A DNA stretch of 50,858 nt, from assembly GCA_905182615.1 (NCBI GenBank), contig CAJJCG010000026.1, positions 1 to 50,858 on the forward strand, in the 5' to 3' direction. Origin of the DNA: Alphaproteobacteria bacterium UBA2964. Lineage in GTDB: Bacteria > Pseudomonadota > Alphaproteobacteria > MPNO01 > UBA2964. Both the position numbers and the translations under genes were made by a program. This document shows, piece by piece, positions 15,078-33,516 of the stretch (its first letter is position 1; every line of letters starts with the position of its first letter). Under the pieces are notes generated by a model. The model was given only the letters and a program-made list of their open reading frames with translations. It made no database searches and was not told the DNA's origin.

Positions 15078-16535
15078 ATGGCAGATGAAGAAGCGCCGCG
15101 GCGCAACGAAGGTTATCAGGATTTACGCGACCTGTTAGAGCGGTTTGAGGAAATGGGCGAGATCGCTCATGTTGATGGTGCGGACTGGAATTTGGAAGTT
15201 GGCGCTATTTCAGAAATGACGGCTGCCGAAAAGCCGGGACGGGCAAAGGCGATGTTGTTCGACAACATCAAAGGCTATCCCGAAGGCACCCGAATACTCG
15301 CCGGTGGTGCCAATGCCTTTAAACGTCTCGCTGTTGTCTTGGGACTGCCAGAGCCGAAAAACGAGATTGATCTCGTCAAAAGCTATCGCGAGCGGTCAAA
15401 GCGCGAGTTCAAGCTTATTCCGCCTGTCGAGGTGTCGACTGGCCCGGTGATGGAAAACATCATGCGAGATGACGAGGTCGATGTCTGGAAATTCCCGGCA
15501 CCCTTTGTCCATGAACTTGATGGTGGTCGTTATATCGGTACGGATGACGCGGTCATTATGCGTGATCCCGATACAGGCTGGGTAAATTCGGCAACATACC
15601 GCGTCATGGTTCATGACGAGAAGACTGTTGGAATCTGGATGTCGCCAGGTAAGCAGGGCCGTTTGATCAGTGAAAAATATTTTGCCAAAGGTGAGCCGTG
15701 CCCGGTTCTGATTTCCTGTGGCCATGATCCGCTTCTCTTTCTGGTCTCGCATCAGGAGATTGATCATGAAGTTGATGAGTTTGCGTTTGCCGGCGGTATG
15801 CGGGGGCGGGCGCTTGAAGTCATCCCCAGTGAAATTCATGGCCTTCCGATCCCGGCGCATGCCGAGATTGTGCTCGAAGGTGAAATCTACGGTGATGAGT
15901 TGCGCGAAGAAGGACCGTTTGGGGAGTTCATGGGGTATTACGCCTCGACCTCAAGCCAACTGCCGGTCGTCAAAATCAAACGCATTTACCATCGTAACAA
16001 CCCAATTTTGACGCTGGCGGTTCCGTCCCGTCCGCCCGAAAACTTTACCTTCGCCCGTGCCGCGGTGAAATCGGCCATGATTTGGGACGAGTGCGAGAAG
16101 GCCGGGTTGAATGGCATTAGCGGTGTTTGGTGCCACGAAGCCGGCGCTGGCCGTTTGTTCAACGTTATTTCGATTAAGCAGCTCTATCCGGGGCATGCTT
16201 CGCAGGCCGGGATGCTGGCCATGAACTGTCATGCCGGTAATTATGCCGGGCGTTGGGTTGTTGTGGTCGATGACGATATCGATCCGTCTAATATGTTCGA
16301 TGTGATTTGGGCAATGTCGACCCGTTGCGATCCACCAGAGGACGTGCAGTTCGTCAAACGATCCTGGTCGACGCCGCTGGACCCGATATTGCGCGAGCCA
16401 CCGTGGCAGAATAATCGCGGTCTCATTGATGCCTGTCGTCCTTATGGCTGGAAGGATGAGTTTCCGGCCGTCGCTGAAGCAAGTCCGGAACTTAAAACGC
16501 AGATGCGTGACAAGTTCCCGCACCTCTTTGATTGA
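15078..16535 (+). CDS. UbiD family decarboxylase, copy 1
   Basis: 485 residues, normal UbiD length. Alignment by eye to the prenylated-FMN decarboxylases gives Asn170 and Arg175 (NSATYR), Glu234 (DEF), and the acid pair Glu278 and Glu283 (EGPFGE), all conserved. The histidine that helps hold the metal in A. niger Fdc1 (His191) is glutamine here (Gln193, in SPGKQG). The family reversibly removes or adds carboxyl groups on aromatic, heteroaromatic or unsaturated acids, using prFMN made by UbiX; no ubiX is near. Start: ATG with GGAG upstream. The MetE-like gene follows after 47 bases and the MmgE/PrpD gene is divergent. Proximity to catabolic genes makes a ubiquinone role less likely. Confidence 0.9.
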   Translation: MADEEAPRRNEGYQDLRDLLERFEEMGEIAHVDGADWNLEVGAISEMTAAEKPGRAKAMLFDNIKGYPEGTRILAGGANAFKRLAVVLGLPEPKNEIDLVKSYRERSKREFKLIPPVEVSTGPVMENIMRDDEVDVWKFPAPFVHELDGGRYIGTDDAVIMRDPDTGWVNSATYRVMVHDEKTVGIWMSPGKQGRLISEKYFAKGEPCPVLISCGHDPLLFLVSHQEIDHEVDEFAFAGGMRGRALEVIPSEIHGLPIPAHAEIVLEGEIYGDELREEGPFGEFMGYYASTSSQLPVVKIKRIYHRNNPILTLAVPSRPPENFTFARAAVKSAMIWDECEKAGLNGISGVWCHEAGAGRLFNVISIKQLYPGHASQAGMLAMNCHAGNYAGRWVVVVDDDIDPSNMFDVIWAMSTRCDPPEDVQFVKRSWSTPLDPILREPPWQNNRGLIDACRPYGWKDEFPAVAEASPELKTQMRDKFPHLFD

Positions 16536-16582
16536 CTTCCTAAAGATTTGACAAAGAACTCTTTAAGCAGAAAGTTGAATTA

Positions 16583-17725
16583 ATGACTCGTTCTAAGCCA
16601 CCTTTCCGCGCAGACGTTGTTGGTAGTTTTCTGCGTCCTGAACGTTTAAAGGAAGCCCGCCGCAATGCCGGGCTGGAGCTTGAATCAACAGCGGACTTTA
16701 TAGAGGAAGAAAGTATCTCGTTGGATCAGTTGCGGGTCATCGAAAATGAATGCATTCGGGAGCTGGTTGATTTCGAAAAAGAGGCGGGATTGCAGGTAGC
16801 AACCGATGGCGAATTTCGTCGTGGTTCCTGGGCTTACGATTCAATCGGCCGTTTCGAAGGTGTTGATCTTCGCCGCCAGGATGATGGCGCAGCGTTTTCT
16901 GGAACGGGCTTTCAGCCTCCCGTTGCACATACCGATACCAAGATTGACAGGCAGCAGGGCGGCATTGTTTTACAGGATTACCTGTTTCTGAAAAACCTTA
17001 CGGATAGCACCATTAAGGTAACGGTGCCATCGCCGACATTGTTCTATGTGCGCGGTGGCCGCGAAGCGGTGAATAAGGACGTTTATCCAGATATTGAAGT
17101 ATTCTTTGAAGACCTGACACAAGCTTATCGCGATGAAATTCAGGATCTTTCAAACGCCGGATCAACCTATCTGCAAATCGACAATACGGATGCCGCATTG
17201 TTGTGTGATCCCAAATTTCAAGAAGCCGCAAAGCGCAAAGGCCTGGATCCGAAAGAACAGATCGAGCTTCAGGGCAAGCTGGTCAGCATGGCAACGCGCG
17301 ACCGTCCTGACAATATGACCATTAGTATGCATATGTGCCGTGGCAATAATGCCGGTGCTTGGCTGGCCGAAGGCAGTTACGACTTCGTCGCTGAGGCATT
17401 GTTTACGCAGTTCGATGTGGATGCATTCTTTATGGAATATGACACTGAACGCGCCGGCGACTTTTCGGCATTACGCTTTGCCCAGAAAGACACGTTTGTC
17501 GTTCTGGGGTTGGTAACGACGAAGACACCGGAGAATGATTCTAAAGATGTTCTCTTGCGCCGGATAGAAGAAGCATCGGCCTATATTCCGATCGAGAATT
17601 TGGCGTTAAGCCCGCAATGTGGTTTTGCCAGTGTGGCACGCGGTAATCCGATCACTTTCGATGATCAAAAACGTAAGCTTGAACTAATTCTCGAGGTTGC
17701 CGACGAAGTCTGGGGAAGTTCTTAG
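16583..17725 (+). CDS. MetE C-terminal-domain-like methyltransferase (YxjG-type)
   Basis: 380 residues corresponding to the single catalytic barrel of cobalamin-independent methionine synthase, without the MetE N-terminal domain. The four zinc ligands are visible: His250 and Cys252 (MHMC), Glu285 (FMEYD) and Cys346 (SPQCGF). The opening RADVVGSFLRP is also typical. Such short proteins move methyl groups to a thiol, often homocysteine, from donors that need not be folate. It is 47 bases behind ubiD copy 1, so it may handle a methyl group released from the same substrate, for example a methoxylated acid; that is inference. A weak ribosome site precedes the ATG. Confidence 0.85.
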   Translation: MTRSKPPFRADVVGSFLRPERLKEARRNAGLELESTADFIEEESISLDQLRVIENECIRELVDFEKEAGLQVATDGEFRRGSWAYDSIGRFEGVDLRRQDDGAAFSGTGFQPPVAHTDTKIDRQQGGIVLQDYLFLKNLTDSTIKVTVPSPTLFYVRGGREAVNKDVYPDIEVFFEDLTQAYRDEIQDLSNAGSTYLQIDNTDAALLCDPKFQEAAKRKGLDPKEQIELQGKLVSMATRDRPDNMTISMHMCRGNNAGAWLAEGSYDFVAEALFTQFDVDAFFMEYDTERAGDFSALRFAQKDTFVVLGLVTTKTPENDSKDVLLRRIEEASAYIPIENLALSPQCGFASVARGNPITFDDQKRKLELILEVADEVWGSS

Positions 17726-17731
17726 AACTTC
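17715..17731. terminator. Inverted repeat between convergent genes, possible two-way terminator
   Basis: GAAGTTC-TTA-GAACTTC is a perfect 7-base inverted repeat with a 3-base loop. It overlaps the stop of the MetE-like gene and ends two bases before the stop of the dienelactone hydrolase gene on the other strand. The stem is AT-rich and the T run is short (TTT), so it would be weak. Confidence 0.3.
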
Positions 17732-17732
17732 T

Positions 17733-18401
17733 TTAGCCGAGAACTTCATCGAGAAATGCCATTGATTGTGCCCATGAGTTGGGTGCCGCTTCTGGATGAA
17801 AGCTTTTCTGCTCTGGATTAAAGAAGGCGTGTTTGGCGCCCGGATGAACGTGAATGCGAAGCTCCGGGTTTGCGGCTCTAATGGCCTCGATTTCTTCCAT
17901 TGAAACACAGTGGTCTATATCGCCGTAGTGGATCACGGACGGGCATTTTGGCTTGTATTCCAACCGTGCCGGGACATGGCTGCCGTAATAATTGACCATG
18001 GCGTCGAATTTCAGCTTGTCGGAGCTGACCCATGCCCATGTGCCGCCTGTACAAAAGCCGGAAATGACGACCGGCCCATAGCTTCGCAATGTGTCGGCGC
18101 AGGCATCGGTGTCGATCAGAATTTTGTCGCCATCCAATGAGGTAAAATGGGCGATACCGGCTTCAACGCCTTCCGGTTCGTAGCTATTCGTAATGTTCGG
18201 TCCTATGCGGTCAAACAAAGACGGAGCAACAGCGACATAGCCTTCGGATGCCCATTGATCGCAAACATCGGCAAGATGGGGGATGCGTCCGGTTATGGCG
18301 TGAAGAATAACAACGCCACCTTTGACCGTGCCGCTTGGATCGCTGCGCCAAGCATCAAAAACATGTCCGTCAGAAGCGTTAATTTTTATTTCGGTACTCA
18401 T
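17733..18401 (-). CDS. Dienelactone hydrolase family protein
   Basis: 222 residues, close to the family norm. The cysteine nucleophile sits in GFCTGG (Cys117), the acid is Asp163 in HYGDIDH, and the histidine is His191 in GAKHAF. This Cys-Asp-His triad separates dienelactone hydrolases from serine hydrolases. The family opens dienelactones made in chloroaromatic or modified ortho-cleavage pathways, but many members act on other lactones or esters. Cytoplasmic; no signal peptide. The ATG at 18401 follows a G-rich site. It is divergent from the TAXI receptor gene across 143 bases, possibly under shared control. Confidence 0.88.
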   Translation of the reverse strand: MSTEIKINASDGHVFDAWRSDPSGTVKGGVVILHAITGRIPHLADVCDQWASEGYVAVAPSLFDRIGPNITNSYEPEGVEAGIAHFTSLDGDKILIDTDACADTLRSYGPVVISGFCTGGTWAWVSSDKLKFDAMVNYYGSHVPARLEYKPKCPSVIHYGDIDHCVSMEEIEAIRAANPELRIHVHPGAKHAFFNPEQKSFHPEAAPNSWAQSMAFLDEVLG

Positions 18402-18544
18402 TTTATCCCCCCAGAATATTGATGGAGCTTAGTCGGATTTCTCCCTTTCGCCAATACTCTATGACTGGCGTCTATTGACAGGGGATCTATCAATGGTGCC
18501 AAATAGTTTCAATTAAACAAAGTAATTTGGAAGGGAGATTTTCA

Positions 18545-19558
18545 ATGACGAAAACAAGTGCTCGAATTGCCTGCATCGCTGCTTTTGCGGCCATTGCAGT
18601 GTCAACTGCAGCCGAAGCAACGATGAAACGGATCACCATCGGGTCGAACCGACAGGGGTCAGTGTTTTATCTGTTGGCCAGTGGCTTTGCCAAAGAGCTG
18701 CAGCAAAACTTAAAGATCCGCTCGACGGCACAGCCGCATTCGGGTTCTACGGTTTATTTGTCTGTCGTCAACAAAGGCGAGATGACATTGGGTCTTAATA
18801 ACTCGATGGATTCGGGTGCATCGGTGCGCGGTGCCGCGCCCTTTAAAAAGAAGATGAAGAACATCCGCGCGATCGCACGGGTTTGGGTCATTCCCTACGG
18901 GCTGATGGTGAAAGCGAATTCCGGTATTAAGAGTATCGCTGACCTAAAAGGCAAAAAGGTTGTAACAACGACCGGTCCCATCGTTAATTTGACCAAACTG
19001 AATATTGCCTATCTGCATTCTGGCGGCCTATCGATCAAAGACATTACTGCGGTTAAATCAGGCGGCATCGTTGATAATATCAACAAGGTCGTTGAAGGTC
19101 GGGCGGATGCCTCTGCCGTTGCCTTGGGTATGCCTGCTGTACGGAAAGCGCATGCTGGGGTCCCCGGCGGTATTCGGATTATTCCTCTCGGTGCTGGTGG
19201 TTCTGATGCTTTCCTAAATCGTGAGGTGCCTGGATCGCGTGGTCTTATGCAAAAGCCCAGCAAGTTCCGCCCGTTCCTGACGGAGCCCACACGTGTTTCA
19301 GCATTTGACGCTTATTTGAACGCTGGTAAGCAGGTGTCGACGGATGATGCCTATAAGATCATCAAGGTTCTTCACCAGAATTGGAAAAAGTTGCAGAAAG
19401 CCTATGGTCCGTTGCGGGGCGTTAAACAGAATGCGATCACGCCACCGACCAACCCGCATCCGTATCATGCCGGTGTCGTCAAATATATGAAGGAAGTTGG
19501 CAACTGGTCGGCGGCCAACGAAAAGCAGCAGCAAGCGGCTTTGGCAGCAGCCAAGTAA
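18545..19558 (+). CDS. TAXI-family TRAP transporter solute-binding protein
   Basis: 337 residues from the ATG at 18545, which has AAGGGAG upstream. A signal peptide of about 26 residues (hydrophobic IACIAAFAAIAVSTAAEA) directs it to the periplasm. The mature start KRITIGSNRQGSVFYLLASGFAKEL is typical of TAXI receptors (ITIGTxxxGGxYYPxG-like), followed by a periplasmic-binding fold with SIADLKGKKVVTT. TAXI receptors bind carboxylates, including glutamate-like and other organic acids, and deliver them to a fused TRAP permease, which is encoded 45 bases downstream. This is the first gene of a run that continues into hydantoinase genes, so the ligand is probably their substrate. Confidence 0.92.
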   Translation: MTKTSARIACIAAFAAIAVSTAAEATMKRITIGSNRQGSVFYLLASGFAKELQQNLKIRSTAQPHSGSTVYLSVVNKGEMTLGLNNSMDSGASVRGAAPFKKKMKNIRAIARVWVIPYGLMVKANSGIKSIADLKGKKVVTTTGPIVNLTKLNIAYLHSGGLSIKDITAVKSGGIVDNINKVVEGRADASAVALGMPAVRKAHAGVPGGIRIIPLGAGGSDAFLNREVPGSRGLMQKPSKFRPFLTEPTRVSAFDAYLNAGKQVSTDDAYKIIKVLHQNWKKLQKAYGPLRGVKQNAITPPTNPHPYHAGVVKYMKEVGNWSAANEKQQQAALAAAK

Positions 19559-19603
19559 GGCATCGTTTTCTGAGTTAGTATTGCGTAAAGCACGGGGCCG
19601 GAT

Positions 19604-21496
19604 ATGACAGACAAGATTTGCAATCTGGCCCTGTGCATCTTTCTTGCACTAATGCCCTTCTGGGGCATTATGTGGATCCTTTCGGTCCCCGATTATTTTC
19701 AGCTTGGGCTGGTTTCTGAACAGTCCGTCACCATTGTGTTGGGGCTGGGTGTCGCGGCCGCCTTTCTTAAATATCCCTACGGCGAAAAGGCAGGATATCT
19801 TGATCTGTTGCTGGCTGTTGTTGGCTGCGGCGTCTGGATGTGGGCATCATTTAATCTTCAGGATTGGTATCTCGAAGCGGCGGAGCGGCCACCCAAGATG
19901 TGGGTGCCGGCTATTGTCGCGATTTTGACAATGATGGAGGGGATTCGGAAGGCTGCCGGCGGCGTGATCGCCGGCATCGTCTGGGTGATCCTGTTATACG
20001 GATTTCTGGGCAATCATTTGCCCGGTGTTATCGAAGCGGAGGTTTTCCCGCCGACGAAGACATTGGTTTATCTCTATACCGATGTGAATGGTATTCCAGG
20101 CTTGGTGCTCAGGATTATCGTCGAGCTGGTTCTGGCATTCATTATCTTTGGCAAGATGATGGACGTTTCCGGGGCGATGAAGTTCGTCAATGACTTGTCG
20201 CTCGGTCTGATGGGGCATCGCCGTGGTGGCCCCGCAAAAGTCGCTGTCGTCGCCTCATCTGCATTTGGCTCTATCTCAGGGTCTACCGTCGCTAATATCA
20301 TGTCGACGGGCGTTGTAACGATCCCGATGATGAAAGAGACCGGGTTTCAGCCGAAATATGCGGCTGCAATCGAGGCAGTTGCCTCCAATGGCGGACAGAT
20401 TGCGCCTCCCGTAATGGGTGCGACGGCCTTTATCATTGCTGAGTTTTTGGAGCTCCCCTATGGCGAAGTAGCGCTTGCGGCGCTTCTGCCAGCAATAATT
20501 TATTTTTTGGTGTTGTTCCTACAGGTTGATGGCGTCGCCGTTCGGTTTGGTATCAAAGGTCTTCCCAAGGATCAGTTGCCAAATGCCTGGAAAGTTTTGG
20601 TCTCCGGCTGGATCTATTTGGTGCCTCTGGCTGTCCTGATCTATGTCCTGATTGGGCTTGGTTATCGGGCAGGGCTGGCGGGGATGTATGCCTGTGCGTT
20701 GCTACTCGTCTTTATGATCGTCCGGAATCGGCGTCTTCCCAACTGGTCAGAATGGAAAGGCTTCTTTGTTGGTGGTGGTGAAAATCTCGTGCCACTGGTG
20801 ATGATCGGTGGTGGTGCCGGGGTCATTATCGGTTTGATGAATAGTACCGGGCTTGGCTTCCAACTGTCTCTGGCTTTGACGGAGATTGCGCAGGCTTACG
20901 GTATTCTTGCGATGTTATTTCTGACGGCATTCATCTGCATTCTTTTGGGAATGGGGATGCCGACGGCCGCGGTCTATGTTGTTCTTGTGTCGATTATTGC
21001 GCCGGCCTTGGTCGAGATGAAAATTCCGCCATTGGCGGCACATATGTTCATTTTCTATTATGGCTTGCTCAGCATGTTAACGCCTCCCGTTGCGGTCGCT
21101 AGTATGGTCGCGGCACAGATTGCAGGCAGTGATATGTGGCGCACGGGGCTAGTCGGCTTACAGCTTGCTGCGGCGGCCTTCCTGATGCCGTTCCTGTGGG
21201 TCTTTAATCCAGCACTTCTATTGCAGGGAACCACTTTAGAGATCGTCTATGTCGTTATTACCACCGTCATTGCAGGTATTGTGATCGGACAAATGACGAA
21301 AGTCGTCGGTAGTGGCGGTATGATGGGTAGTTTTGGCGTGGTCGGACTTTTGGTCGCTGCGATCTTTATTGGCGGCGGCACTGTCTGGTTTGGAACAACT
21401 CACCCTGCAGCGCTGATTCCTGCGGCCGCTGCGTTGATTATCTTGGTCACCATGCGTATTCTCCGGCAGCGAAAATTAGCAGCTGAAATCGGATAA
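19604..21496 (+). CDS. TRAP transporter fused permease (DctQM type)
   Basis: 630 residues with about 15-17 hydrophobic segments. The N-terminal part supplies the small-subunit helices, and the larger C-terminal part is DctM-like, with GSISGSTVANIMSTGVVTIP, EAVASNGGQIAPPVMGATAF and LGMGMPTAAVYV, all characteristic of the TRAP 4TM/12TM fusion that partners TAXI receptors. It imports the bound organic acid with a sodium gradient across the inner membrane. It ends one base before the ATG of hyuA, so transport and enzyme genes are almost certainly cotranscribed. Confidence 0.93.
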   Translation: MTDKICNLALCIFLALMPFWGIMWILSVPDYFQLGLVSEQSVTIVLGLGVAAAFLKYPYGEKAGYLDLLLAVVGCGVWMWASFNLQDWYLEAAERPPKMWVPAIVAILTMMEGIRKAAGGVIAGIVWVILLYGFLGNHLPGVIEAEVFPPTKTLVYLYTDVNGIPGLVLRIIVELVLAFIIFGKMMDVSGAMKFVNDLSLGLMGHRRGGPAKVAVVASSAFGSISGSTVANIMSTGVVTIPMMKETGFQPKYAAAIEAVASNGGQIAPPVMGATAFIIAEFLELPYGEVALAALLPAIIYFLVLFLQVDGVAVRFGIKGLPKDQLPNAWKVLVSGWIYLVPLAVLIYVLIGLGYRAGLAGMYACALLLVFMIVRNRRLPNWSEWKGFFVGGGENLVPLVMIGGGAGVIIGLMNSTGLGFQLSLALTEIAQAYGILAMLFLTAFICILLGMGMPTAAVYVVLVSIIAPALVEMKIPPLAAHMFIFYYGLLSMLTPPVAVASMVAAQIAGSDMWRTGLVGLQLAAAAFLMPFLWVFNPALLLQGTTLEIVYVVITTVIAGIVIGQMTKVVGSGGMMGSFGVVGLLVAAIFIGGGTVWFGTTHPAALIPAAAALIILVTMRILRQRKLAAEIG

Positions 21497-21497
21497 T

Positions 21498-23597
21498 ATG
21501 GCAGATTCAAGTGGACCGGCACGATACCGGCTCGGTGTCGACGTTGGCGGTACCCATACAGATTTAGTTCTCAACGATATGGCAAGCGGGGCTCTCAGAA
21601 TTGAGAAGCTGCCGTCTTCGCCCGAAAATCCTGCCTTGGCAGTATTGGAAGGGCTAAAGCGGTTATTGGGAACCGGGGTCAAGCCTGACGAGATTGCCTT
21701 TTTCGCCCATGGGACAACCGTTACGACCAATGCTTTGCTCGAAGGCAAGGGCTCGAAGATTGGTCTATTGATCAACCAGGACTTCCGGGCAATTTGTGAA
21801 GTTCAGACGCAGGCCCGCGACGAAGGCAACCCGTTCGATCATCTGTTTCAACGTCCGGCACATCTTGCGCCACCTGAGCTGACGCGGGAAATCCCCGGTC
21901 GGATGGACTATCTTGGAAACGAAATCCAGCGGCTTGATCGAGATGCCATTGCGACGGCAATACAGTCCCTTGTTGCAGAGGATATACACTCGTTCACTAT
22001 TTGCTATCTGTTCTCCTACATGAACGATGCACATGAGCGTGAGACCGCTAATATTATCCGCGATATTGCACCGGGTGCGTTTGTGTCGATGTCGAGCGAG
22101 GTATTGCCGCGGATTCGCGAATGGCCGCGTTTTTCAACGACGCTGATCAACGCCTATCTGGTGCCGGTGCTGGCGAAATATATTGCTGACCTGGCTGCGG
22201 GTCTGGACGACGAAAAAGTTATGACCCGACGTCGGTTTTTGATGCAGTCAAATGGCGGCGTGATGCCTCTCTCCGCCAATGCCGAAGCGCAAACGGTGCA
22301 TACGCTGCTGTCAGGTCCGGCGGCTGGCGTTCAGGGCACAGCCTATTTGCTCGGCATCGAACAAGGCTGGAAGAATATCGTCACCATGGATATGGGCGGT
22401 ACGAGTTGTGATATCGCCTTTGTCGAAAATGGTGCGCCGCTTGAGCACGCTGAAGCAATCGTTGCTGGCCGCATCGTTGCTGTTCCAGCGCTTGATGTTT
22501 CAACGATTTCCGCGGGCGGTGGCAGCATTGCCCGGGTTAATGCCGGAGGACTGCTTGAAGTTGGCCCTGATAGTGCCGGGGCTGCACCCGGACCGGCCTG
22601 TTACGGGAAGGGTGGTAATTTGCCAACCGTGACCGATGCCGATGTTGTCGCCGGCATTCTAAATCCTGACTTCTTCCTAGGCGGCAAGATGCCGCTGGAT
22701 ATGAAAGCGGCGACACAGGCTGTGCAAGATCATGTGGCCACGCCGATGAATATCGAATTATCGGATGCTGCAGCTGGCATCACGCGGGTAATCAATGCCC
22801 GCATGGCGGATGAAATTCGAGTTCAAGCGGCTAAGAAGGGCGTCGATTTATCCGGCTTTACGCTCGTGCCGTTTGGCGGCGCCGGGCCGGTTCATGCCGT
22901 AGCAGTTGCTGAAGATCTGGGCATTCCACGTGTCCTGGTCCCCGCTAGTCCCGGGGCTTTTTCTGCACTTGGGCTGCTCTGCGCCGACGTCGTTCATGAT
23001 TATATTCGGTCGGACCTCCAGGACTTGGACGGTATTGATTCGGATCATGTTGAATCTGCTTTTACGACCTTGGAAGAACGCGCCGCGAAGGAGCTTCAGG
23101 AAGAGGATCTTGGCGATGAGGATAAACACTTCCTCCGCGAAGTTGACCTGCGCTATGCCGGGCAGGGGTATGAGCTGCGCGTGCCCATCGAAGGTATCCC
23201 GACACCACTAGATACCGCAGGGTTTGCGGCGTTGGCGGAACGCTTTCATGAGCGGCACGAGGCTGTGCATGGTCATGCCGCGCGCGGCGCTCTGATCGAA
23301 GTTGTGAGCTATCGTTTGCGGGCGGTCGTGCCGATGCCAAAAATTGAAATGTTATCGTCGATTGATCAGGAAACCACACGTTCGGGGCAGCCATCGGATA
23401 ATAGAGCCTTCCGGGATGCGCGCGGAAATTCGATAGAGGCAGCGGTCTGGCGCCGCGAAGATCTTCCAGCAGAAGGAGACATTGAGGGCCCCATCATTGT
23501 GGAACAGCTTGATGCGACAACAGTTGTGCCGGGCGGTTGGTCGGTCCGGCTCGATGATGCCGGCAATATGGAACTCTTTCGGGAGGATATGGCATGA
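21498..23597 (+). CDS. Hydantoinase/oxoprolinase family protein, A subunit
   Basis: 699 residues matching the ATP-using HyuA family. The phosphate-binding start GVDVGGTHTD is at residues 13-22, HGTTVTTNALLE near 75-86, and DMGGTSCDIAF at about 298-308, as in N-methylhydantoinase A, 5-oxoprolinase, and the acetone and acetophenone carboxylases. The family couples ATP cleavage to opening of a cyclic amide or activation of a ketone. The next gene encodes the B subunit and overlaps by four bases. The upstream TRAP transporter suggests a carboxylate- or imide-like substrate; the exact reaction cannot be chosen between hydrolase and carboxylase types. Confidence 0.92.
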   Translation: MADSSGPARYRLGVDVGGTHTDLVLNDMASGALRIEKLPSSPENPALAVLEGLKRLLGTGVKPDEIAFFAHGTTVTTNALLEGKGSKIGLLINQDFRAICEVQTQARDEGNPFDHLFQRPAHLAPPELTREIPGRMDYLGNEIQRLDRDAIATAIQSLVAEDIHSFTICYLFSYMNDAHERETANIIRDIAPGAFVSMSSEVLPRIREWPRFSTTLINAYLVPVLAKYIADLAAGLDDEKVMTRRRFLMQSNGGVMPLSANAEAQTVHTLLSGPAAGVQGTAYLLGIEQGWKNIVTMDMGGTSCDIAFVENGAPLEHAEAIVAGRIVAVPALDVSTISAGGGSIARVNAGGLLEVGPDSAGAAPGPACYGKGGNLPTVTDADVVAGILNPDFFLGGKMPLDMKAATQAVQDHVATPMNIELSDAAAGITRVINARMADEIRVQAAKKGVDLSGFTLVPFGGAGPVHAVAVAEDLGIPRVLVPASPGAFSALGLLCADVVHDYIRSDLQDLDGIDSDHVESAFTTLEERAAKELQEEDLGDEDKHFLREVDLRYAGQGYELRVPIEGIPTPLDTAGFAALAERFHERHEAVHGHAARGALIEVVSYRLRAVVPMPKIEMLSSIDQETTRSGQPSDNRAFRDARGNSIEAAVWRREDLPAEGDIEGPIIVEQLDATTVVPGGWSVRLDDAGNMELFREDMA

Positions 23598-25246
23598 GCA
23601 TTAAATCAGACAAAGCGGTTGATCCAATAACGGTGCAGATATTGCGCAATCGGATTGGCAGCCTGATGGATGAGATGCATCATCATTTCTTCCGCTCCGG
23701 TTATTCGACGATTGTCCGTGAATCTCGGGACTTTAGCTGCGTTATTCTCGATGCACAGGGGCGGCTTCTCGTTGCCCCGCCGATGTTTTTCCATTCCACC
23801 GCCTATCGGTATTTCGTACAGCGGATATTTGAACTGGTCGGTGATGATGGGCTATGTGATGGCGATGTCTTTATCTCCAATCATCCCTATGACGGCAGCA
23901 TGCCCCACGTCCCCGATATGGGCGTCATCGTTCCGATCTTTCAGAATGAGGAGCTGATCGGTTTTTCGGGCTCCATTGCCCATAAGGCAGATGTCGGCGG
24001 TACCATGCCGGGCTCCACCTGGGGGCAGGCAACGGAACTGTTTCAGGAAGGTATCGTTTATCCGCCAACTCGGCTCTATCGCGCTGGCGTCTATGACAAG
24101 GGCATCGAACGACTGATCGCGACAAACAGCCGTCAGCCTGAACTTACCTTGGGTGATTTGCGCGGGCAGGTTGCCGCCTGCTTTATCGGGCGTGACCGGT
24201 TGCGACAGATTTGCGCGGAATATAGTACGGTTGAGCTTGCCGCGTCTTTGGACGCAATGATCGAAGCGGCCGGGGTCGAATTCCGTACTGCGTTGTCGCA
24301 GTTGCCTAATGGGATACAGGAAGCAGAATCTTCTCTCGATAGCGATGGCATTGACCGTAATAAGCCCGTCCGTATGCATGTCCGCATGACCGTTGAGAAC
24401 GGGCAGGTAGAATTCGATTTTACCGAAAGTGATCCGCAGGGGCGCGGGCCGGTCAATATCCGACGGGCTCTGGTCGAGGCATGCTGCTATCAAGTTTTAA
24501 TAGGCATGATTAACCCGGAGCTTCGTTACAGCGATGCGATACGGGATACGGTTACGATAAAGCTGAAGGAAGGTACGGTTTTAAGCCCGATTCCACCGGC
24601 GCCGTGTAGCTCCTATATGAAAACCTGTATGACCGTAATCGATATGCTCCTCGAAGCGTTCGGCACGTTCTCGACGGATCGCGCGGCCGCCTATAGCGGC
24701 GGCAGTGGTGGTGGGCTTACGGTTGACTGGGGACCTGGTCCCCGCAAGGCGCGTGGCAATCAATATGAGATCTATGGCTCTGCCTATGGCGGGTCAGCCT
24801 CTCAGGATGGTGCGTCAGGGACGACGGTGCATCTGTCGAATATCTATGTAACACCCATTGAGATTGTTGAGACGGAATTTCCCTGTCGGGTGACTAAGTT
24901 TGAGATGATTCCCGGGTCCGGCGGTGACGGAAAACATCGCGGCGGACTCGCATTAAGACGTGAATACGAAATGCTTCAGCCAGGCCTCGTGATTTTCCGC
25001 GGTGATCGGGCTTTACGACCTCCACGCGGTGTCGCCGGTGGCAAGCCGGGGCGGCCCAGCCGTTTCGTTGTTAATCCTGGCAAAGAAAATGAAAAGGAAA
25101 TGCCGATTACCACCAGTGTAAACCTCGAAACTGGCGATACGTTGGTGATGGAGGCGGCTGGTGGTGGCGGGTATGGCGATCCTGCAGAGCGTGATCCAGA
25201 AAAGCGGGCAGAAGATATCCGTCAAGGCTATGTGACGACGGATTAG
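23594..25246 (+). CDS. Hydantoinase/oxoprolinase family protein, B subunit
   Basis: 550 residues of the HyuB family. Visible marks are VDPITVQILRNRIGSLMDEM at the start, ISNHPYDGSMPHVPDMGVI near 95-115, the FDFTESDPQGRGPVN block, and the glycine-rich C-terminus (GSGGDGKHRGGLALRR and AAGGGGYGDPAERDPE). It forms the catalytic complex with the A subunit. The ATG overlaps the hyuA stop (ATGA) and has GGGAGGA upstream, showing translational coupling. No gamma subunit such as that of acetone carboxylase follows, which favours the two-subunit hydantoinase type. Confidence 0.92.
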   Translation: MSIKSDKAVDPITVQILRNRIGSLMDEMHHHFFRSGYSTIVRESRDFSCVILDAQGRLLVAPPMFFHSTAYRYFVQRIFELVGDDGLCDGDVFISNHPYDGSMPHVPDMGVIVPIFQNEELIGFSGSIAHKADVGGTMPGSTWGQATELFQEGIVYPPTRLYRAGVYDKGIERLIATNSRQPELTLGDLRGQVAACFIGRDRLRQICAEYSTVELAASLDAMIEAAGVEFRTALSQLPNGIQEAESSLDSDGIDRNKPVRMHVRMTVENGQVEFDFTESDPQGRGPVNIRRALVEACCYQVLIGMINPELRYSDAIRDTVTIKLKEGTVLSPIPPAPCSSYMKTCMTVIDMLLEAFGTFSTDRAAAYSGGSGGGLTVDWGPGPRKARGNQYEIYGSAYGGSASQDGASGTTVHLSNIYVTPIEIVETEFPCRVTKFEMIPGSGGDGKHRGGLALRREYEMLQPGLVIFRGDRALRPPRGVAGGKPGRPSRFVVNPGKENEKEMPITTSVNLETGDTLVMEAAGGGGYGDPAERDPEKRAEDIRQGYVTTD

Positions 25247-25259
25247 GGAGACAACCGCG

Positions 25260-25694: not shown

Positions 25695-25729
25695 ATCATT
25701 GGGGCTTGCTTCAGAGGGAGAACATTTTG

Positions 25730-26545: not shown

Positions 26546-26822
26546 GCGGCTTTCTGTAGCCGTTCGCATAGTACTATTGGTGTTAGTTTTTGCGGTTGGC
26601 ATTTTCTCACAGCCGACATTGGCGGCTCTATGGGCAGTGCGAGAACTCAGTCAGAAAGATGACGGGACGCTTGCCGCATTAATCTCCCGGCTTGATTTCA
26701 AACACGATCCGAAATGGGTAACCGGCGACGTTGTTGTTGCGCTCACGGACCTAACCGGCAAACGATTTGGCTATGGTCGTGATGCTTGGCGCCAGTGGTG
26801 GCGAGCTCGAAACCGCCCCTAA
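26520..26822 (+). CDS. Small exported or membrane-anchored protein of unknown function
   Basis: A 100-residue frame overlapping the LOG gene by 26 bases and ending one base before the ubiD copy 2 stop. It has no ATG; TTG at 26520 or 26535 or GTG at 26580 could start it. The first 35 residues form a basic-hydrophobic signal or anchor (RRLSVAVRIVLLVLVFAVGIFSQPTLA). The end, LTGKRFGYGRDAWRQWWRAR, resembles the last segment of HEAT-repeat proteins, which often read LTGxxFGYDxxAWxxWW. It may be a short protein of that type or the remnant of a longer one. The hydrophobic leader followed by this motif makes a chance frame unlikely. Confidence 0.5.
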   Translation: MIVRGLVYRRLSVAVRIVLLVLVFAVGIFSQPTLAALWAVRELSQKDDGTLAALISRLDFKHDPKWVTGDVVVALTDLTGKRFGYGRDAWRQWWRARNRP

Positions 26823-28352
26823 TTAATTCTCGATATCATCCAGCGCTGATAGTTTAGGTGGCTGCCCTGGCAGGTTCATTTCTTCCCAACGCGCCGCGAC
26901 GCGGTCGTGGACCGGTTTGCGGATCATCGTGCGGACCGGGAACTCTGCCAGATGTTTGTGCGGCTTGCAGGCATCGATCAGCGCCTTGGAGCCATAGGGA
27001 CGGTCTTCTGGCGGAAATTGGCTGGGGTCGAGGCCGGTCGACCAGGTTCTGCGCTGCAGATCAATGTCATCTGCCGGGTTGGCTCTTGTGCTCAGAGCCC
27101 AGAGAACTTGATTGATATCGGTTGGATCGACGTCGTCGTCGACCGCGATAATCCATTTGGTGAAGTAGGATCCGGCAGGGCATTGCGCGGCTGCGGAAAG
27201 TGTCTGGGCGATGTGACCGGCATATTGCTGCTTGATCGAAACGACAGTCATGCCCCAGCTTGAGGCCGCCGCGGGATGACAATAGACGCCTTCTACACCG
27301 GGAATGCCGAACCGCTGAAGGTCATCCCAAATCGCAGCCGACCGCATAATTGCGTAATAGGCACCAATTTCGCAGGCCGGGTAATCGGCCATCAGGGCAG
27401 CAGTCATGATCGGCTGCTTGCGCATATGCAGCGCCGTCACATTGATCACGGGTTGGGGGTCTTCCGGTCTGCCATAATAGCCGGTGAATTCGCCAAGCGG
27501 GCCCTCCATCTCGAGATCGCCTTTTGCCACAGTGCCTTCGATAACAATTTCGGCACGCGCTGGAATGGGTAGAGATGTCGTGACACCGCTGGTTAATTCC
27601 ATGGGGGTGCCGGTTAACCCTCCAATGATGTCGAGTTCTGAAACATCGCTGCCATAGGATTGCGCCGCGACCATGAACGGGACGGGGTCAATGCCATAGG
27701 CGACCACAACTTCACACTCCTCGCCACGTTTCCACCAGGCTTCGCGATCGAGCAGGCCGTGCTTGCCGGGCGAGCAATACATCCCTACACGCCGCGGGCC
27801 GTGCAGCATTTGGCGATAGCAGCCGACATTGATACGTCCGGAGTCGGGGTTTTTGGTAAAAGTAATATCTCCGGTTCCGATATATTTCCCGCCATCGCGT
27901 GGCCAGAAATGGGGCACCGGCAGCTCGGTTAAATCGATATCGTCTCCGGTCAAGACAATCTCGTTTACCGGCGCGGTATCCGCCGGGACATCAACCGGTG
28001 CCAGCGTTCGCTTGCTGCGTTCGCGGGTCGCCAGGATCAGTTCGCCGGTTGGTAGGTTGGGGTCGAGCCCGACGGCCAGAGCATAGCGACGATTACTGGC
28101 GCCGAGCATATTGCTGAGGATACGGGTGCCTGTTGCGTCGCCTTCCAGGTTTTCAAACAGCAAAGCCGGGGAGTTTTCATCCTGTGCCACCATATAGGTC
28201 GCGGCGGCCAGTTCTTCTTGTGGATCTACCGGTGCCGTGACACGTAGTAATCCGCCATCGGCCTCAATAGCATCCATCCATTCCCGTAAATCGCGCGGGC
28301 CACGTTGATTATCAGTTGCCGCTGCAGGTGGAGATTTTGGTTCATTTGTCAT
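26823..28352 (-). CDS. UbiD family decarboxylase, copy 2
   Basis: 509 residues, the most canonical of the three UbiD proteins here. The prFMN and metal site is intact by eye: Asn175 and Arg180 (NVGCYR), His198 (SPGKHG), Glu239 (VSEL), and the acids Glu283 and Glu288 (EGPLGE). Later family blocks are present (SIKQQYAGHIAQTL, and IIAVDDDVDPTDINQVLWALSTR). It should decarboxylate or carboxylate an unsaturated or aromatic acid using UbiX-made prFMN. It is divergent from a VOC gene and a Rieske oxygenase across 117 bases, which suggests work on the same ring compound. The stop touches the stop of the small gene on the other strand. Confidence 0.92.
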   Translation of the reverse strand: MTNEPKSPPAAATDNQRGPRDLREWMDAIEADGGLLRVTAPVDPQEELAAATYMVAQDENSPALLFENLEGDATGTRILSNMLGASNRRYALAVGLDPNLPTGELILATRERSKRTLAPVDVPADTAPVNEIVLTGDDIDLTELPVPHFWPRDGGKYIGTGDITFTKNPDSGRINVGCYRQMLHGPRRVGMYCSPGKHGLLDREAWWKRGEECEVVVAYGIDPVPFMVAAQSYGSDVSELDIIGGLTGTPMELTSGVTTSLPIPARAEIVIEGTVAKGDLEMEGPLGEFTGYYGRPEDPQPVINVTALHMRKQPIMTAALMADYPACEIGAYYAIMRSAAIWDDLQRFGIPGVEGVYCHPAAASSWGMTVVSIKQQYAGHIAQTLSAAAQCPAGSYFTKWIIAVDDDVDPTDINQVLWALSTRANPADDIDLQRRTWSTGLDPSQFPPEDRPYGSKALIDACKPHKHLAEFPVRTMIRKPVHDRVAARWEEMNLPGQPPKLSALDDIEN

Positions 28353-28469
28353 TGGCGGACTTTGCCATGCAGCCTCTCCAAACGTAAAGGCCGTTACGAG
28401 CGGTGCTTCCTGTTCCCGAGTTTCTCTTATAAGCTTTTCCGCAGCATCGTTACGTTCGGAGATTTAGCC

Positions 28470-28904
28470 ATGCCCATCTTGACCCGCGTCGACCATCTTA
28501 ATGTTCAGGTGCCGCCCGATAGGGAAGCAGAGGCGATTGCGTTCTATCGCGATCTTGTCGGCTTCAAACAACTCCAAAAACCAGACAACTTGGGTCCAAA
28601 AGGCGGACATTTCTGCATTTCTGAAAACCCTTGGTACGAGCTCCATGTCGGTATTGCCCGGGGGACGAACTCTGCGGATATCGATTTCAAGAACACCTTA
28701 CGGAATCATCTGGCATTCCAGGTTGAGGGGTTGGCTGATGCCCGTGTGAAATTCGAAGAGGCGGGTGTTGAGATTATGGAGGCCGAAGCTTCCTATTCGA
28801 AAGACCGGGATTTTCACCAGGACCGGTTCTTTATCCGCGATCCGGGGGGGAATTTGTTGGAAATCATGGAGACGCGACGCGATTACAATGCGGCACCTCA
28901 TTAA
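28470..28904 (+). CDS. VOC/glyoxalase superfamily protein
   Basis: 144 residues from the ATG at 28470; the longer upstream frame overlaps ubiD copy 2 and is not convincing. One vicinal-oxygen-chelate unit is seen: VDHLNVQVPP at the N-terminus with a likely metal histidine, NHLAFQVEGL in the middle, and FFIRDPGGNLLEIMET at the C-terminus with a likely metal glutamate. Such small proteins include glyoxalase I, fosfomycin resistance enzymes and ring-cleavage enzymes. Between a UbiD gene and a Rieske oxygenase, an aromatic-catabolism role is plausible but unproven. Confidence 0.82.
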   Translation: MPILTRVDHLNVQVPPDREAEAIAFYRDLVGFKQLQKPDNLGPKGGHFCISENPWYELHVGIARGTNSADIDFKNTLRNHLAFQVEGLADARVKFEEAGVEIMEAEASYSKDRDFHQDRFFIRDPGGNLLEIMETRRDYNAAPH

Positions 28905-28975
28905 GTGACTTGTTTTCTTTGCCTTCAGGACGACTCCGTTATACAAAATGCCCATCAATTAGCTGATGGATTATC

Positions 28976-30256
28976 GTGACAGACTCCCCTTTTATTATCG
29001 ATCAGCCTGAAGACATGGTGTTTCGGCTTAACCGCCGAACACTGGCCGATCCAGAAATATTGACCCGCGAGCAAACGGAAATTTTTGATAAATCGTGGAT
29101 TTATTGCGGCCATGAATCCGAAGTCTCTAAACCGGGCGATTTTTGTACCCGCGACGTTTGCGGCCGACCAGTCATCTTCAGCCGCGATAGCGCTGGCGAT
29201 GTTCGGGTGTTCCTCAATGCCTGCCGGCATCGCGCGGCGATGGTGTGCCGCGAGCCCTGCGGCAATACCCGGCGCTATAACTGTTTTTACCATGGCTGGA
29301 GTTATAACCAGGATGGTGAACTGGTTGGCGTACCGGGCGAAGACTCATACCCGCCGGGCTTTGATAAGGCGAATTTCTCACTGGCCGAGCCGCCGCGTGT
29401 CGATTCCTATCGCGGCTTCTGGTTTATCAGCTTTAACCCCGACATAAAGGATCTGAAGGAATATCTGGCCGGCGCGACCGAATATATCGATCTCGTTGCC
29501 GATCAGTCGCCAAGTGGTGAAATGCAGGTCATTCAGGGGACGCAGGAATACGATATCCGCGCGAACTGGAAGCTATTGGTCGAGAATAGCTTTGATGATT
29601 ATCACCTGCTGACCACGCACAAGACTTGGCTCGATTATATGAAGGATTCGGGCGTTCAGGTTGAGCCGCCAAAAGGCCAGGGGCTCCTATTGCCATCAAA
29701 GGGTATCGGCAAGGGCCTCGGCAATGGTCATGCCGTTATCGACAATATCAATTTCCGGGGCAGGCCTGTCGCGCGCTGGATTTCGATCTATGGCGAAGAT
29801 GCCAAGGAAGAGATCGAGGATATTCGAACTGAACTGGTTGAACGGCTCGGCGAAAAGCGTGCCGCTCGCGTTGCCGACACCAATCGTAATCTCGTCGTGT
29901 TTCCTAATCTCGTCATTAATGACGGTTCGTCAGTAACCATCCGGACGTTCTGGCCAGTGGCCGCTGATCATATGAAGGTTACAGCGTGGGCATTGGGGAC
30001 CAAGGAAGAGTCTGTACGGGCACGGGCGCGGCGTCTTGATAGTTTTCTGACTTTCTATGGCCCAGGCGGCTTTGCGACGCCTGATGATGTTGAGGCGTTG
30101 GAAGCGGTGCAGGCGGGGTTAGCGACCTGGCGTGAGGTCGAGTGGTCGGAGATGACCAGAGGGCTCAACAAAGAGGGCGAGCAGCTCAATACAGATGAAG
30201 AGCATCTGCGTGCCTTCTGGCGTGAGTGGAATGCCCTGATGACGGTAGACGCATGA
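28976..30256 (+). CDS. Rieske non-haem iron ring-hydroxylating oxygenase, alpha subunit
   Basis: 426 residues from a GTG start with GGA upstream. The Rieske cluster ligands are Cys83, His85, Cys103 and His106 (CRH and CFYH). The mononuclear iron site has Asp208, His210 and His215 (ENSFDDYHLLTTH). These are the complete catalytic marks of aromatic dioxygenase large subunits such as benzoate, anthranilate or terephthalate oxygenases. The beta subunit starts within its stop codon region, giving an alpha-beta enzyme. It hydroxylates an aromatic ring with O2 and electrons from NAD(P)H through a reductase that is not encoded here. Substrate cannot be read. Confidence 0.93.
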   Translation: MTDSPFIIDQPEDMVFRLNRRTLADPEILTREQTEIFDKSWIYCGHESEVSKPGDFCTRDVCGRPVIFSRDSAGDVRVFLNACRHRAAMVCREPCGNTRRYNCFYHGWSYNQDGELVGVPGEDSYPPGFDKANFSLAEPPRVDSYRGFWFISFNPDIKDLKEYLAGATEYIDLVADQSPSGEMQVIQGTQEYDIRANWKLLVENSFDDYHLLTTHKTWLDYMKDSGVQVEPPKGQGLLLPSKGIGKGLGNGHAVIDNINFRGRPVARWISIYGEDAKEEIEDIRTELVERLGEKRAARVADTNRNLVVFPNLVINDGSSVTIRTFWPVAADHMKVTAWALGTKEESVRARARRLDSFLTFYGPGGFATPDDVEALEAVQAGLATWREVEWSEMTRGLNKEGEQLNTDEEHLRAFWREWNALMTVDA

Positions 30257-30744
30257 GTGCCAAGGATATAAGCCGCAGCGACGTCGAAGATTTCCTCTAT
30301 GACGAGGCCGCTTTGTTGGATGAATGGCGGCTCGATGAGTGGCTGAAACTGCTGACCGATGACGCGATCTATCAGATTCCATCGACCGATGCGCCCGATA
30401 GTGATGCCCGCAACGCATTGTTTTTGATTGCCGATGATGCCACCCGTATCAAGGCACGGGTCAAAAGGCTGAATGACACCGAAGCCCATGCAGAATCACC
30501 CCGCAGCCGAACACGGCGAATGATCGCAAATGTGCGGATAACCGAGCGGGATGGCGATACGCTGGCCGTAAGCGCTAATTTCTCGGTTTACCGCTATCGC
30601 CGGAACTCTCCGCTGCGGCACTTTGTTGGCCGATATGAGTTTCGTCTGAGGGTTACGGATAAGGGATTACGCATCGCGGAACGGCGTGTCATTCTGGACC
30701 CGACAGAGCTTGGAACGCTAGGCGCGATCAGCTTTATCCTGTAA
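30253..30744 (+). CDS. Ring-hydroxylating dioxygenase beta subunit
   Basis: 163 residues from the ATG at 30253, which overlaps the alpha-subunit stop by four bases (ATGA), a sign of translational coupling. The sequence matches the SnoaL-like cone fold of small subunits: VEDFLYDEAALLDEWRLDEWLKLLTDDA at the start, the RTRRMIANVRI strand, and FVGRYEFRLRVTDKGLRIAERRVILD at the end. It shapes and stabilises the alpha3-beta3 oxygenase and has no metal. It supports the view that the enzyme belongs to the benzoate/biphenyl-type family rather than alpha-only oxygenases. Confidence 0.9.
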   Translation: MSAKDISRSDVEDFLYDEAALLDEWRLDEWLKLLTDDAIYQIPSTDAPDSDARNALFLIADDATRIKARVKRLNDTEAHAESPRSRTRRMIANVRITERDGDTLAVSANFSVYRYRRNSPLRHFVGRYEFRLRVTDKGLRIAERRVILDPTELGTLGAISFIL

Positions 30745-30831
30745 CAGCTTTAGGCTTTCAGACAGGCCTGCATTGCCATTGTGGCGGCGTGATCATATCT
30801 GAAATAGACATATTAGATTTTGGAGTGGCAA

Positions 30832-31980
30832 ATGACATTTTGTCTTTCTCGCATAATGGCGGGAATTATCGCCATCGCTGTTCTGACTATCGGGGCTTGT
30901 ACCTCGACGGAACTTCCTGCAGAGACGGTTAGCTCTCAACTTCATAAATTTCGGGTCGTGCCGCTTGCCAAAGGTTTGGAACACCCTTGGAGCATCGCTT
31001 TTCTTCCCAACAAGAGCATTTTGATTTCAGAACGCGCTGGCCGTTTACGGCTTTATCAGAATGGCCGTCTCGACTCCAAGCCAGTCGGCAATTTACCAAA
31101 AATTGTCGATAGCGGGCAGGGCGGTCTGTTCGATGTGACGCTGCATCCTGATTTTAGGAAGAACCAGCTTCTCTATCTCGCCTATGCCGCACGCGGACAG
31201 GGCGGCGTTCACACCCGTGTCACGCGGTATCGATATGATGCCAAGGTGCATGCTCTCGCCGATGCAAGACAGATCTTTGATGCTAGTCCTAAAGCTTCTG
31301 GGGGCCGTCATTTCGGCGGACGTATGGTGTTTGATCGTCAAGGGTATCTCTATATTACCCTCGGCGATCGGGGAGATATGGATCGGGCGCAGGATACCGC
31401 CGAACACTCGGGGTCAGTGATCCGCCTGCATGATGATGGCAGGGTGCCGAGTGACAATCCGTTGCGGGCCATAGCTCGAGCCAAACCAGAAATCTACAGC
31501 TTCGGGCATCGCAATCCGCAGGGCATGGCGTTGCATCCCAAGACCGGTGCGATCTGGACACATGAACATGGCGCGCGCGGTGGAGATGAGATTAATATCA
31601 TCCGGCCCGGGCGCAATTATGGCTGGCCCGTAATTACCCATGGAATCGATTATGATGGCTCGAAGATCGGTATTGGCAAGTCCGCACCGGGGATGGAGCA
31701 GCCGCTTTACTATTGGCTGCCGTCGATCGCCCCTGCTGGTATGGCGTTTTACACCGGCAACAAGTTTCCGAAATGGGGCAACAGCCTGTTTGTCGGGGCG
31801 TTGCGCGGTGAGACACTGGTGCGGCTTGAACTCAAAGGAGATCAAGCCGTTAAAGAAGAAAGGCTTCTCCAAAACGCGGTCGGCCGCATCCGCGATGTAC
31901 GGACGGGGCCTGATGGCTTTCTTTACCTCGCCACAGACGACAGCGATGGACGTTTGTTGCGTCTGGAGCCAATTAGGTAA
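30832..31980 (+). CDS. PQQ-dependent aldose sugar dehydrogenase-like lipoprotein (YliI type)
   Basis: 382 residues from the ATG at 30832 with GGAG upstream. The N-terminus is a lipoprotein signal with lipobox IGAC (Cys23), so the protein is anchored at the periplasmic face. The body is a six-bladed propeller of the soluble glucose dehydrogenase family: LEHPWSIAFLPN, GLFDVTLHPDF, and GGRHFGGRMVFD with likely catalytic His160, followed by GHRNPQGMALHP and HEHGARGGDEIN. Related E. coli YliI oxidises aldoses with PQQ. PQQ synthesis genes are not in the window. It converges with ubiD copy 3. Confidence 0.88.
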   Translation: MTFCLSRIMAGIIAIAVLTIGACTSTELPAETVSSQLHKFRVVPLAKGLEHPWSIAFLPNKSILISERAGRLRLYQNGRLDSKPVGNLPKIVDSGQGGLFDVTLHPDFRKNQLLYLAYAARGQGGVHTRVTRYRYDAKVHALADARQIFDASPKASGGRHFGGRMVFDRQGYLYITLGDRGDMDRAQDTAEHSGSVIRLHDDGRVPSDNPLRAIARAKPEIYSFGHRNPQGMALHPKTGAIWTHEHGARGGDEINIIRPGRNYGWPVITHGIDYDGSKIGIGKSAPGMEQPLYYWLPSIAPAGMAFYTGNKFPKWGNSLFVGALRGETLVRLELKGDQAVKEERLLQNAVGRIRDVRTGPDGFLYLATDDSDGRLLRLEPIR

Positions 31981-31986
31981 ACAGCC

Positions 31987-33516
31987 CTAGTTGAACATAT
32001 CCTCCGGGAGGAAGTCTTCAAGATCGACGCTGTCGAAGTTTTTCGGCATTGCGCGGGCGAAACGTTCTCTCTGATCTGGTCTGCTGACAGCAGGCATGGT
32101 GGCATCGATCAGCCACTTGGTGCCCATCCGTTCGAACTGATGGCCTCCTTCGGGAACTGGTGACACCTTATCCAGAGCAAAGGTACGCGTGTTAGGGATC
32201 ATCGTTACGTCATCAGCAGCGTTAACCCGCGTGGTCATTGACCACATCACCTGCCGTAGGTCGCTGGCATCAATGTCTTCATCGACGGCAATGGCTAGCT
32301 TCGGATGGAGATAGGGCCCCGAGAGGGCGGCGAGGAGCGCTGTCTTCGCCTGACCTGAAATCTTGGGCCGCAGTTTGACAACAATCATCATCAGACCGGC
32401 AGCGGCGTGACAGCGGATATCCAGGACATCCATGCCGCCTTCAACCTTGCTCAGATGATCCCAGGTCGCAATTTCGATCCCAATCCCTGTGGTGGCTTGG
32501 GTACAGGTGATCGGTGCGCCGCAATGCAGGGCGTAATAGACCGGGTTCCGACGATGGGTGATGGCCTTGAGATGGAAGACATCGCATTGATCGGCTTCGG
32601 CATAGGTGCCGGGCACTTCACCAAACGGACCTTCGTGGCGCAACTCGCCGGGAATGACTTCCCCTTCGAGAATTATTTCCGCATCGGCGGGAACTTCAAC
32701 ATCAATGGTTTCGCATTTGACCATACGGATAGCTTCGCCGAGGATTCCGCCAGAAACCGAGAGTTCATCTACACCGTAGGTCGTGGTAAAGGCGGAGCCA
32801 AAGAAGATTGCCGGGTGGGCACCGATAACGACGGCGACCGGCATTGCCTTATTTTGGTCGGCATATTTGTCGCTAATACGGCGGGCCTGTCGCGGCAGCA
32901 TCAGGAAACCGGTCGTCTGGGCATCAAAGACTTGCTGGCGATGGATTGAGATATTCCGGATACCGGTTTCGGGGTCCTTCATGATTGCCATACCGGCTGG
33001 AATGAACGGGCCACCATCATCTTCCGAGATCGAGACAACCGGAATGTCAAAGAGGGAGGCTTCGTCACCGATTTTTATGACCTCTTTGCATGGGGCTCCT
33101 TCTGATTCCTGCATCACAGGCTCAATGGGTTTTGCGACCTTGCGCAACATGCCTTCGAGAAATTCGTCTTCCGTGAGATTGACGCCCATAGCCCATTTTT
33201 TACGGTCGGTCAGGATTTGGCTACAGACCTGCCAGTCAGGGTGGCCTTTAACATTGTCGAAGATGGTCGCTTTGCCGTGTTGGTCGTATGTCTTCCACTC
33301 GATGGCTGACAAATTGGTGGCGGGATCAACTTCCTTGGTGACGCGAACCATTTCGCCGGTTTTTTCGAGTTTCTCAAGATATGACCGGATGCCCTGGTCC
33401 TGAGGATTACGAGAAGGGGCAGGTTTCTTTGCGCCGTCTTTGTTCATATCGCGTTTGTCGAGATCGCCGGTTTTGTCTACATTCCGCATAAATCCGCGCA
33501 AGCCGTCGTCGCCCAT
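31987..33516 (-). CDS. UbiD family decarboxylase, copy 3 (divergent)
   Basis: 509 residues. It has an N-terminal extension of about 40 polar residues, rich in Asp and Lys, before the usual start (GIRSYLEKLEKTGEMVRV). Conserved sites: Asn188 and Arg193 (NISIHR), Glu251 (VDEL), Glu295 and Glu300 (EGPFGE). The Fdc1 metal histidine is not kept; the aligned stretch is LPRQARR, with Ala211 at the position and Gln210 beside it. The block SGGILG and the late part (IAVDEDIDASDLRQVMWSMTTR) confirm the family. It is one strand-unit with the tailed crotonase behind it (79 bases upstream), so both may share a promoter. Substrate unknown. Confidence 0.88.
   Translation of the reverse strand: MGDDGLRGFMRNVDKTGDLDKRDMNKDGAKKPAPSRNPQDQGIRSYLEKLEKTGEMVRVTKEVDPATNLSAIEWKTYDQHGKATIFDNVKGHPDWQVCSQILTDRKKWAMGVNLTEDEFLEGMLRKVAKPIEPVMQESEGAPCKEVIKIGDEASLFDIPVVSISEDDGGPFIPAGMAIMKDPETGIRNISIHRQQVFDAQTTGFLMLPRQARRISDKYADQNKAMPVAVVIGAHPAIFFGSAFTTTYGVDELSVSGGILGEAIRMVKCETIDVEVPADAEIILEGEVIPGELRHEGPFGEVPGTYAEADQCDVFHLKAITHRRNPVYYALHCGAPITCTQATTGIGIEIATWDHLSKVEGGMDVLDIRCHAAAGLMMIVVKLRPKISGQAKTALLAALSGPYLHPKLAIAVDEDIDASDLRQVMWSMTTRVNAADDVTMIPNTRTFALDKVSPVPEGGHQFERMGTKWLIDATMPAVSRPDQRERFARAMPKNFDSVDLEDFLPEDMFN

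Follow-up and report, generated by a model that had tools for sequence, protein, structure and literature searches.

Genes in the window

The window, that is, the whole stretch of 50,858 bp analysed here (contig CAJJCG010000026.1 of Alphaproteobacteria bacterium UBA2964), contained three genes encoding UbiD-family decarboxylases, named UbiD1, UbiD2 and UbiD3. They are listed below with their neighbours; G001 is a complete genome from the same genus, assembled as one contig (4,149,033 bp, 37 UbiDs).

12450..13529, + strand: TauD/TfdA-type dioxygenase, near UbiD1, conserved in G001
13542..15053, - strand: MmgE/PrpD protein, absent beside the UbiD1 orthologue in G001
15078..16535, + strand: UbiD1, UbiD-family decarboxylase, 485 aa, intact ORF
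16583..17725, + strand: MetE-like cobalamin-independent methyltransferase of the NF005085 family, adjoining UbiD1, conserved in G001
18527..25246, + strand: TAXI-type TRAP receptor, fused TRAP permease, hydantoinase/oxoprolinase A and B
26823..28352, - strand: UbiD2, UbiD-family decarboxylase, 509 aa, intact ORF
28470..28904, + strand: VOC/glyoxalase-superfamily protein, 144 aa, start re-assigned to ATG 28470
28976..30256, + strand: Rieske ring-hydroxylating dioxygenase alpha subunit, benzoate/anthranilate dioxygenase-like, scoring under the equivalog cut-offs
30226..30744, + strand: ring-hydroxylating dioxygenase beta subunit
31987..33516, - strand: UbiD3, HmfF-like UbiD-family decarboxylase, 509 aa, intact ORF
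33596..34459, - strand: crotonase with a Lys/Ala-rich N-terminal tail, same-strand upstream neighbour of UbiD3, a linkage shared by many relatives
34637..36157, + strand: aldehyde dehydrogenase (ALDH), divergent from the crotonase, linked to the crotonase in several further lineages within the order

An earlier note on this DNA had described the UbiDs at 15078, 26823 and 31987 as mutually dissimilar and in possession of the prFMN acid-base residues, and both points were confirmed. UbiD_N, UbiD and UbiD_C domains were found in each of them, far over the Pfam cut-off, and the pairwise identities were 36.7, 30.6 and 27.5%. Through alignment with AnFdc1, we found that the E-R-E network (equivalents of R173, E277 and E282) was retained in all three, and likewise the equivalents of N168 and E233. 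The metal-site position H191 is His in UbiD2 and Gln in UbiD1 and UbiD3; it is variable across 70 UbiD paralogues, while the catalytic residues are retained in nearly all UbiDs of the set. In the UbiD3 alignment R193 and E295 were invariant and E300 nearly so. The first 38 residues of UbiD3 were predicted with low confidence and are probably disordered. Judged from their sequences, UbiD1-3 are intact decarboxylases of the predicted prFMN type, from three distinct lineages.

UbiD2 is divergent from the VOC and Rieske genes, with a gap of 117 bp, and the immediate surroundings of UbiD3 are composed of the crotonase, the ALDH, a sugar dehydrogenase and an MFS protein. The crotonase probably starts at ATG 34459 rather than at GTG 34579; its tail is linker-histone-like and kept in the genus, and distant relatives have a much shorter one or none. 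The TAXI-type TRAP transporter is directly followed by the hydantoinase A and B genes.

Phylogenetic and structural placement

The UbiD tree, which included nine solved relatives, did not gather UbiD1-3 in the ubiquinone clade, the placement that would have contradicted the earlier note. The E. coli ubiquinone UbiD (5m1c) grouped only with protein C45 of the window genome (658 bits to the E. coli protein) and the C45 orthologue. By this grouping C45 is the ubiquinone-synthesis UbiD of the window genome and UbiD1-3 lie outside that clade; they share superfamily and catalytic triad with the E. coli enzyme. Against NF008175 (ubiquinone UbiD, threshold 788) UbiD1-3 scored just 141, 197 and 188.

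UbiD1 and UbiD2 fell in one large clade of 25 rows (100/99) together with 7pda, PhdA, the phenazine-1-carboxylate decarboxylase of Mycolicibacterium fortuitum. This is also their closest solved relative (341 bits for UbiD1 and 258 bits for UbiD2). The phdA operon carries its own UbiX (phdB) and maturase (phdC) (PMC13040415), whereas the window genes have no UbiX nearby and the phdA-phdB-phdC arrangement was not found. Because PhdA sits on a long branch, its specificity is not transferable to UbiD1 or UbiD2. UbiD1 scored 319 bits against TIGR02724 (phenylphosphate carboxylase beta), under the equivalog cut-off of 469.

UbiD3 was placed on the HmfF/AnInD/AroY side of the tree with C86 and C120 as sisters. 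Its best match in both sequence (33% identity) and fold was HmfF, the 2,5-furandicarboxylate decarboxylase of Pelotomaculum (6h6v); the predicted model (pLDDT 85.5, pTM 0.84) superposed on it with Z 48.7 and rmsd 1.9 over 443 residues. UbiD3 differs from HmfF in the N-terminal extension of about 38 residues, the Gln in place of His at the H191 position, and its crotonase and ALDH neighbours. In the furoate pathway HmfF is accompanied by the molybdenum hydroxylase HmfABC and the CoA ligase HmfD; genes of these types were not found immediately around UbiD3 in the window. Since several reference sequences form long branches, the exact placement among the reference UbiDs is unsure.

UbiX and cofactor supply

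UbiX was absent from the ORFs of the window, and the genome search revealed it on contig C58, so that the single remote UbiX proposed in the earlier note does exist. The protein has 202 aa and scores 242 bits against NF004685 (cut-off 188) and also over the cut-off of TIGR00421. Among 27 genomes of the order, one UbiX above cut-off was found in 22, two in three, and none in two incomplete genomes. A second flavoprotein match, L002, proved from its sequence to be of the Dfp/CoaBC type.

Neighbour genes and clustering of UbiDs

The neighbour sets that the earlier note assigned to the three genes are present in the window (MetE-like; VOC and Rieske; tailed crotonase), with one qualification: MmgE/PrpD does not accompany UbiD1 stably, because it is missing beside the UbiD1 orthologue in G001. 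There, the TauD and MetE-like genes accompany UbiD1. The closest relatives (e.g. L067, L068, L070 and G001) share the block UbiD2-VOC-Rieske alpha and beta-sugar dehydrogenase-UbiD3-crotonase-ALDH in collinear form. As UbiD2 and the Rieske genes are divergent, it is from this conserved linkage that we infer a shared function. The same gene order was also seen in a locus of about 90% identity in a record titled Flavobacteriales bacterium TMED123 (L069), whose title is probably wrong or whose bin is probably mixed.

The earlier note took the local density as a possible mark of a pathway for polycarboxylated compounds. In one such pathway UbiD1-3 would catalyze successive steps and remove several carboxyls from one (hetero)aromatic molecule. 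The collinearity from UbiD2 to ALDH, with UbiD1 located near the rest of the block in G001, is consistent with such a pathway, and the UbiDs of G001 are clustered beyond random (6 triples within 21 kb versus 0.53 expected, p 0.0002), as catabolic islands or tandem birth would lead one to expect. However, random placement of 37 UbiDs along 4.15 Mb gave one or more triples inside 21 kb (about 20 kb) in 39% of cases, and therefore the triplet alone does not mark one pathway. In distant relatives (about 56-66% identity) the crotonase-UbiD3 linkage is kept, often with ALDH, but the fetched flanks contain neither UbiD1 nor UbiD2. UbiD1 is also spread wider: each of the order's four families has UbiD1 orthologues (74-98% identity), whereas UbiD2 orthologues of at least 70% identity are found only in the window's own family, with relatives of 51-52% in another family. 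One shared pathway is thus unlikely, and UbiD1-3 are best read as separate modules because linkage and family distribution differ.

Which kind of module is suggested by the genes adjacent to UbiDs in G001. TauD, VOC, molybdenum-hydroxylase and Rieske families pooled made up 25/177 of these, against at most 4/123 among random genes (p about 0.001); significance was reached in the pooled test alone, the single families giving p 0.06-0.46. An expansion for biosynthesis, of secondary metabolites or by carboxylation, rather than for catabolism of carboxylic acids, has precedents in biosynthetic UbiDs (TtnD, 6da6; bagremycin BagN) and in the reversibility of UbiD reactions (PMC8988006). We regard it as quite improbable, considering that the UbiDs are flanked by dioxygenases, molybdenum hydroxylases, crotonases and uptake transporters of the TRAP/TTT type, that polyketide and peptide synthases are absent from the most frequent neighbour families, and that the UbiD paralogues are scattered over the whole chromosome. 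The catabolic modules remain the preferred reading.

Two UbiDs outside the window have other surroundings of this kind. C40_12822 (L035:7823-13826) scores 822 bits to phthaloyl-CoA decarboxylase (8pmk) and begins a same-strand run that continues with a gene resembling glutamine synthetase, both Rieske subunits (alpha and beta) and TauD; presumably this run resembles the gamma-glutamylanilide/aniline dioxygenase clusters, which we take as a lead. A second phthaloyl-CoA-decarboxylase-like UbiD (L036:1150-3942) adjoins a VanA-type Rieske oxygenase.

UbiD expansion in the genome, the order and beyond

The window genome (2.45 Mb, 123 contigs, 72.7% complete, 0.9% contamination) contains 33 UbiD genes. 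In 25 of the 27 genomes of the order 22-37 UbiDs were found; the remaining two, of 1.3 and 1.4 Mb, are the smallest bins. The same survey included 34 genomes from elsewhere in the class, and these have 0-5. A broader sample covered 289 genomes of the class, with up to 10 matches scored per genome, and its numbers are first-look candidates; beyond the window's family no count exceeded 16, and the majority of genomes had 0-7. An artefact of assembly, binning or contamination might be suspected in a bin of 123 contigs, but it is refuted by the 37 UbiDs on the single 4.15-Mb contig of G001, and the low contamination, the G001 orthologues of all 33 genes and the same pattern in four families likewise speak against it.

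The local UbiD density results from this expansion across genome and order (33-37 UbiDs). We therefore dropped the triplet as specially dense: what the earlier note called unusual holds for UbiDs genome-wide, where they are far over-represented, but a triple is unsurprising given that number. What is unusual is the number of UbiDs, their conservation throughout the order and the single UbiX.

All 33 UbiDs of the window genome have a reciprocal-best orthologue in G001, with 88-96% identity. The dN/dS of these pairs had a median of 0.024 and a maximum of 0.076 where synonymous change was unsaturated; it was 0.013 for UbiD1 and 0.029 for UbiD3, the synonymous sites of UbiD2 being saturated. The median identity between paralogues inside the window genome was 27%. 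Complete orthology, low dN/dS and this low identity indicate that the UbiDs are old, selected paralogues. They are not recent copies, as the earlier note had stated for the three in the window (here 27-37% mutual identity). From such sequence constraint, inactive enzymes appear very unlikely.

Two features of the G001 chromosome were also observed. Between 1.93 and 3.19 Mb, a stretch of 1.26 Mb contains just one of the 37 UbiDs, so this region is avoided. One UbiD (L164:8100-9444), for which the window genome lacks a counterpart, is divided between two frames (402 and 121 aa), possibly as a pseudogene or through a sequencing error.

Elsewhere, a Binatia chromosome has 34 UbiDs and a Deltaproteobacteria bin has 41. 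The highest numbers were seen in groundwater bins: 61 in a 5.2-Mb Betaproteobacteria bin (L142, JACQTO010000269.1; G332), and at least 80 scored UbiDs, with 126 first-look candidates, in an 8.3-Mb Deltaproteobacteria bin (L143, JACQUW010000159.1; G333). Two more genomes from the phylum of the latter have 60 and 63 first-look candidates. Among 198 sampled genomes of that phylum, with up to 14 matches scored per genome, only four exceeded 20, again by first-look count. The UbiD-rich genomes are few and belong to unrelated lineages; therefore UbiD expansion is rare but has arisen more than once. No published UbiD expansion was found in the literature searched, preprints and most subscription papers lying outside its scope.

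Proposed role of the UbiD set

In sequence terms, the picture of three different, old, non-ubiquinone UbiDs that draw on a remote UbiX and lie among genes for oxidative, aromatic-type catabolism is supported. We consider it probable that UbiD1-3 belong to a set of ancient UbiD paralogues, about 22-37 per genome, that extends across the order, and that each paralogue uses the prFMN of the single UbiX on its own acid and feeds a local oxidative module. The UbiX on C58 would make prFMN, and each apo-UbiD would bind and mature it. Each enzyme would have an inferred substrate of its own, either a (hetero)aromatic or an alpha,beta-unsaturated acid, and the decarboxylated product would be passed to the local oxidative module: from UbiD2 to the Rieske dioxygenase, and from UbiD3 to the crotonase and aldehyde dehydrogenase. 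UbiD1 would go with the TauD-type dioxygenase and the MetE-like methyltransferase.

Carboxyl-rich molecules constitute a large, slowly turned-over share of dissolved organic matter, and the enzymes that open them are poorly known. By analogy with the SAR202 bacteria, the whole UbiD set may broaden the range of usable carboxylated organic compounds. In SAR202, paralogue expansions of FMNO, enolase and ring-hydroxylating dioxygenase were proposed to widen the use of refractory organic matter (PMC6946804). The likeness is the lineage-wide radiation of one catabolic enzyme family; the enzyme family and the phylum are different, and UbiD is unmentioned in that paper.

The gene content suggests a lifestyle of the order built on removing carboxyl groups from many aromatic-type acids. 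More tentatively, we might speculate that prFMN decarboxylation is the metabolic hub of this whole uncultured order, with one UbiX and about 35 ancient UbiDs, every one of which opens a separate oxidative module for refractory, carboxyl-rich dissolved organics, and that the expansions in Binatia and in the groundwater bins are separate. How one flavin prenyltransferase supplies some 35 apo-enzymes is a testable question. Dozens of conserved prFMN decarboxylases in one lineage provide a defined enzyme panel for the idea of carboxyl-rich matter use, and for (hetero)aromatic (de)carboxylation the expansion would offer many UbiD specificities yet to be explored.
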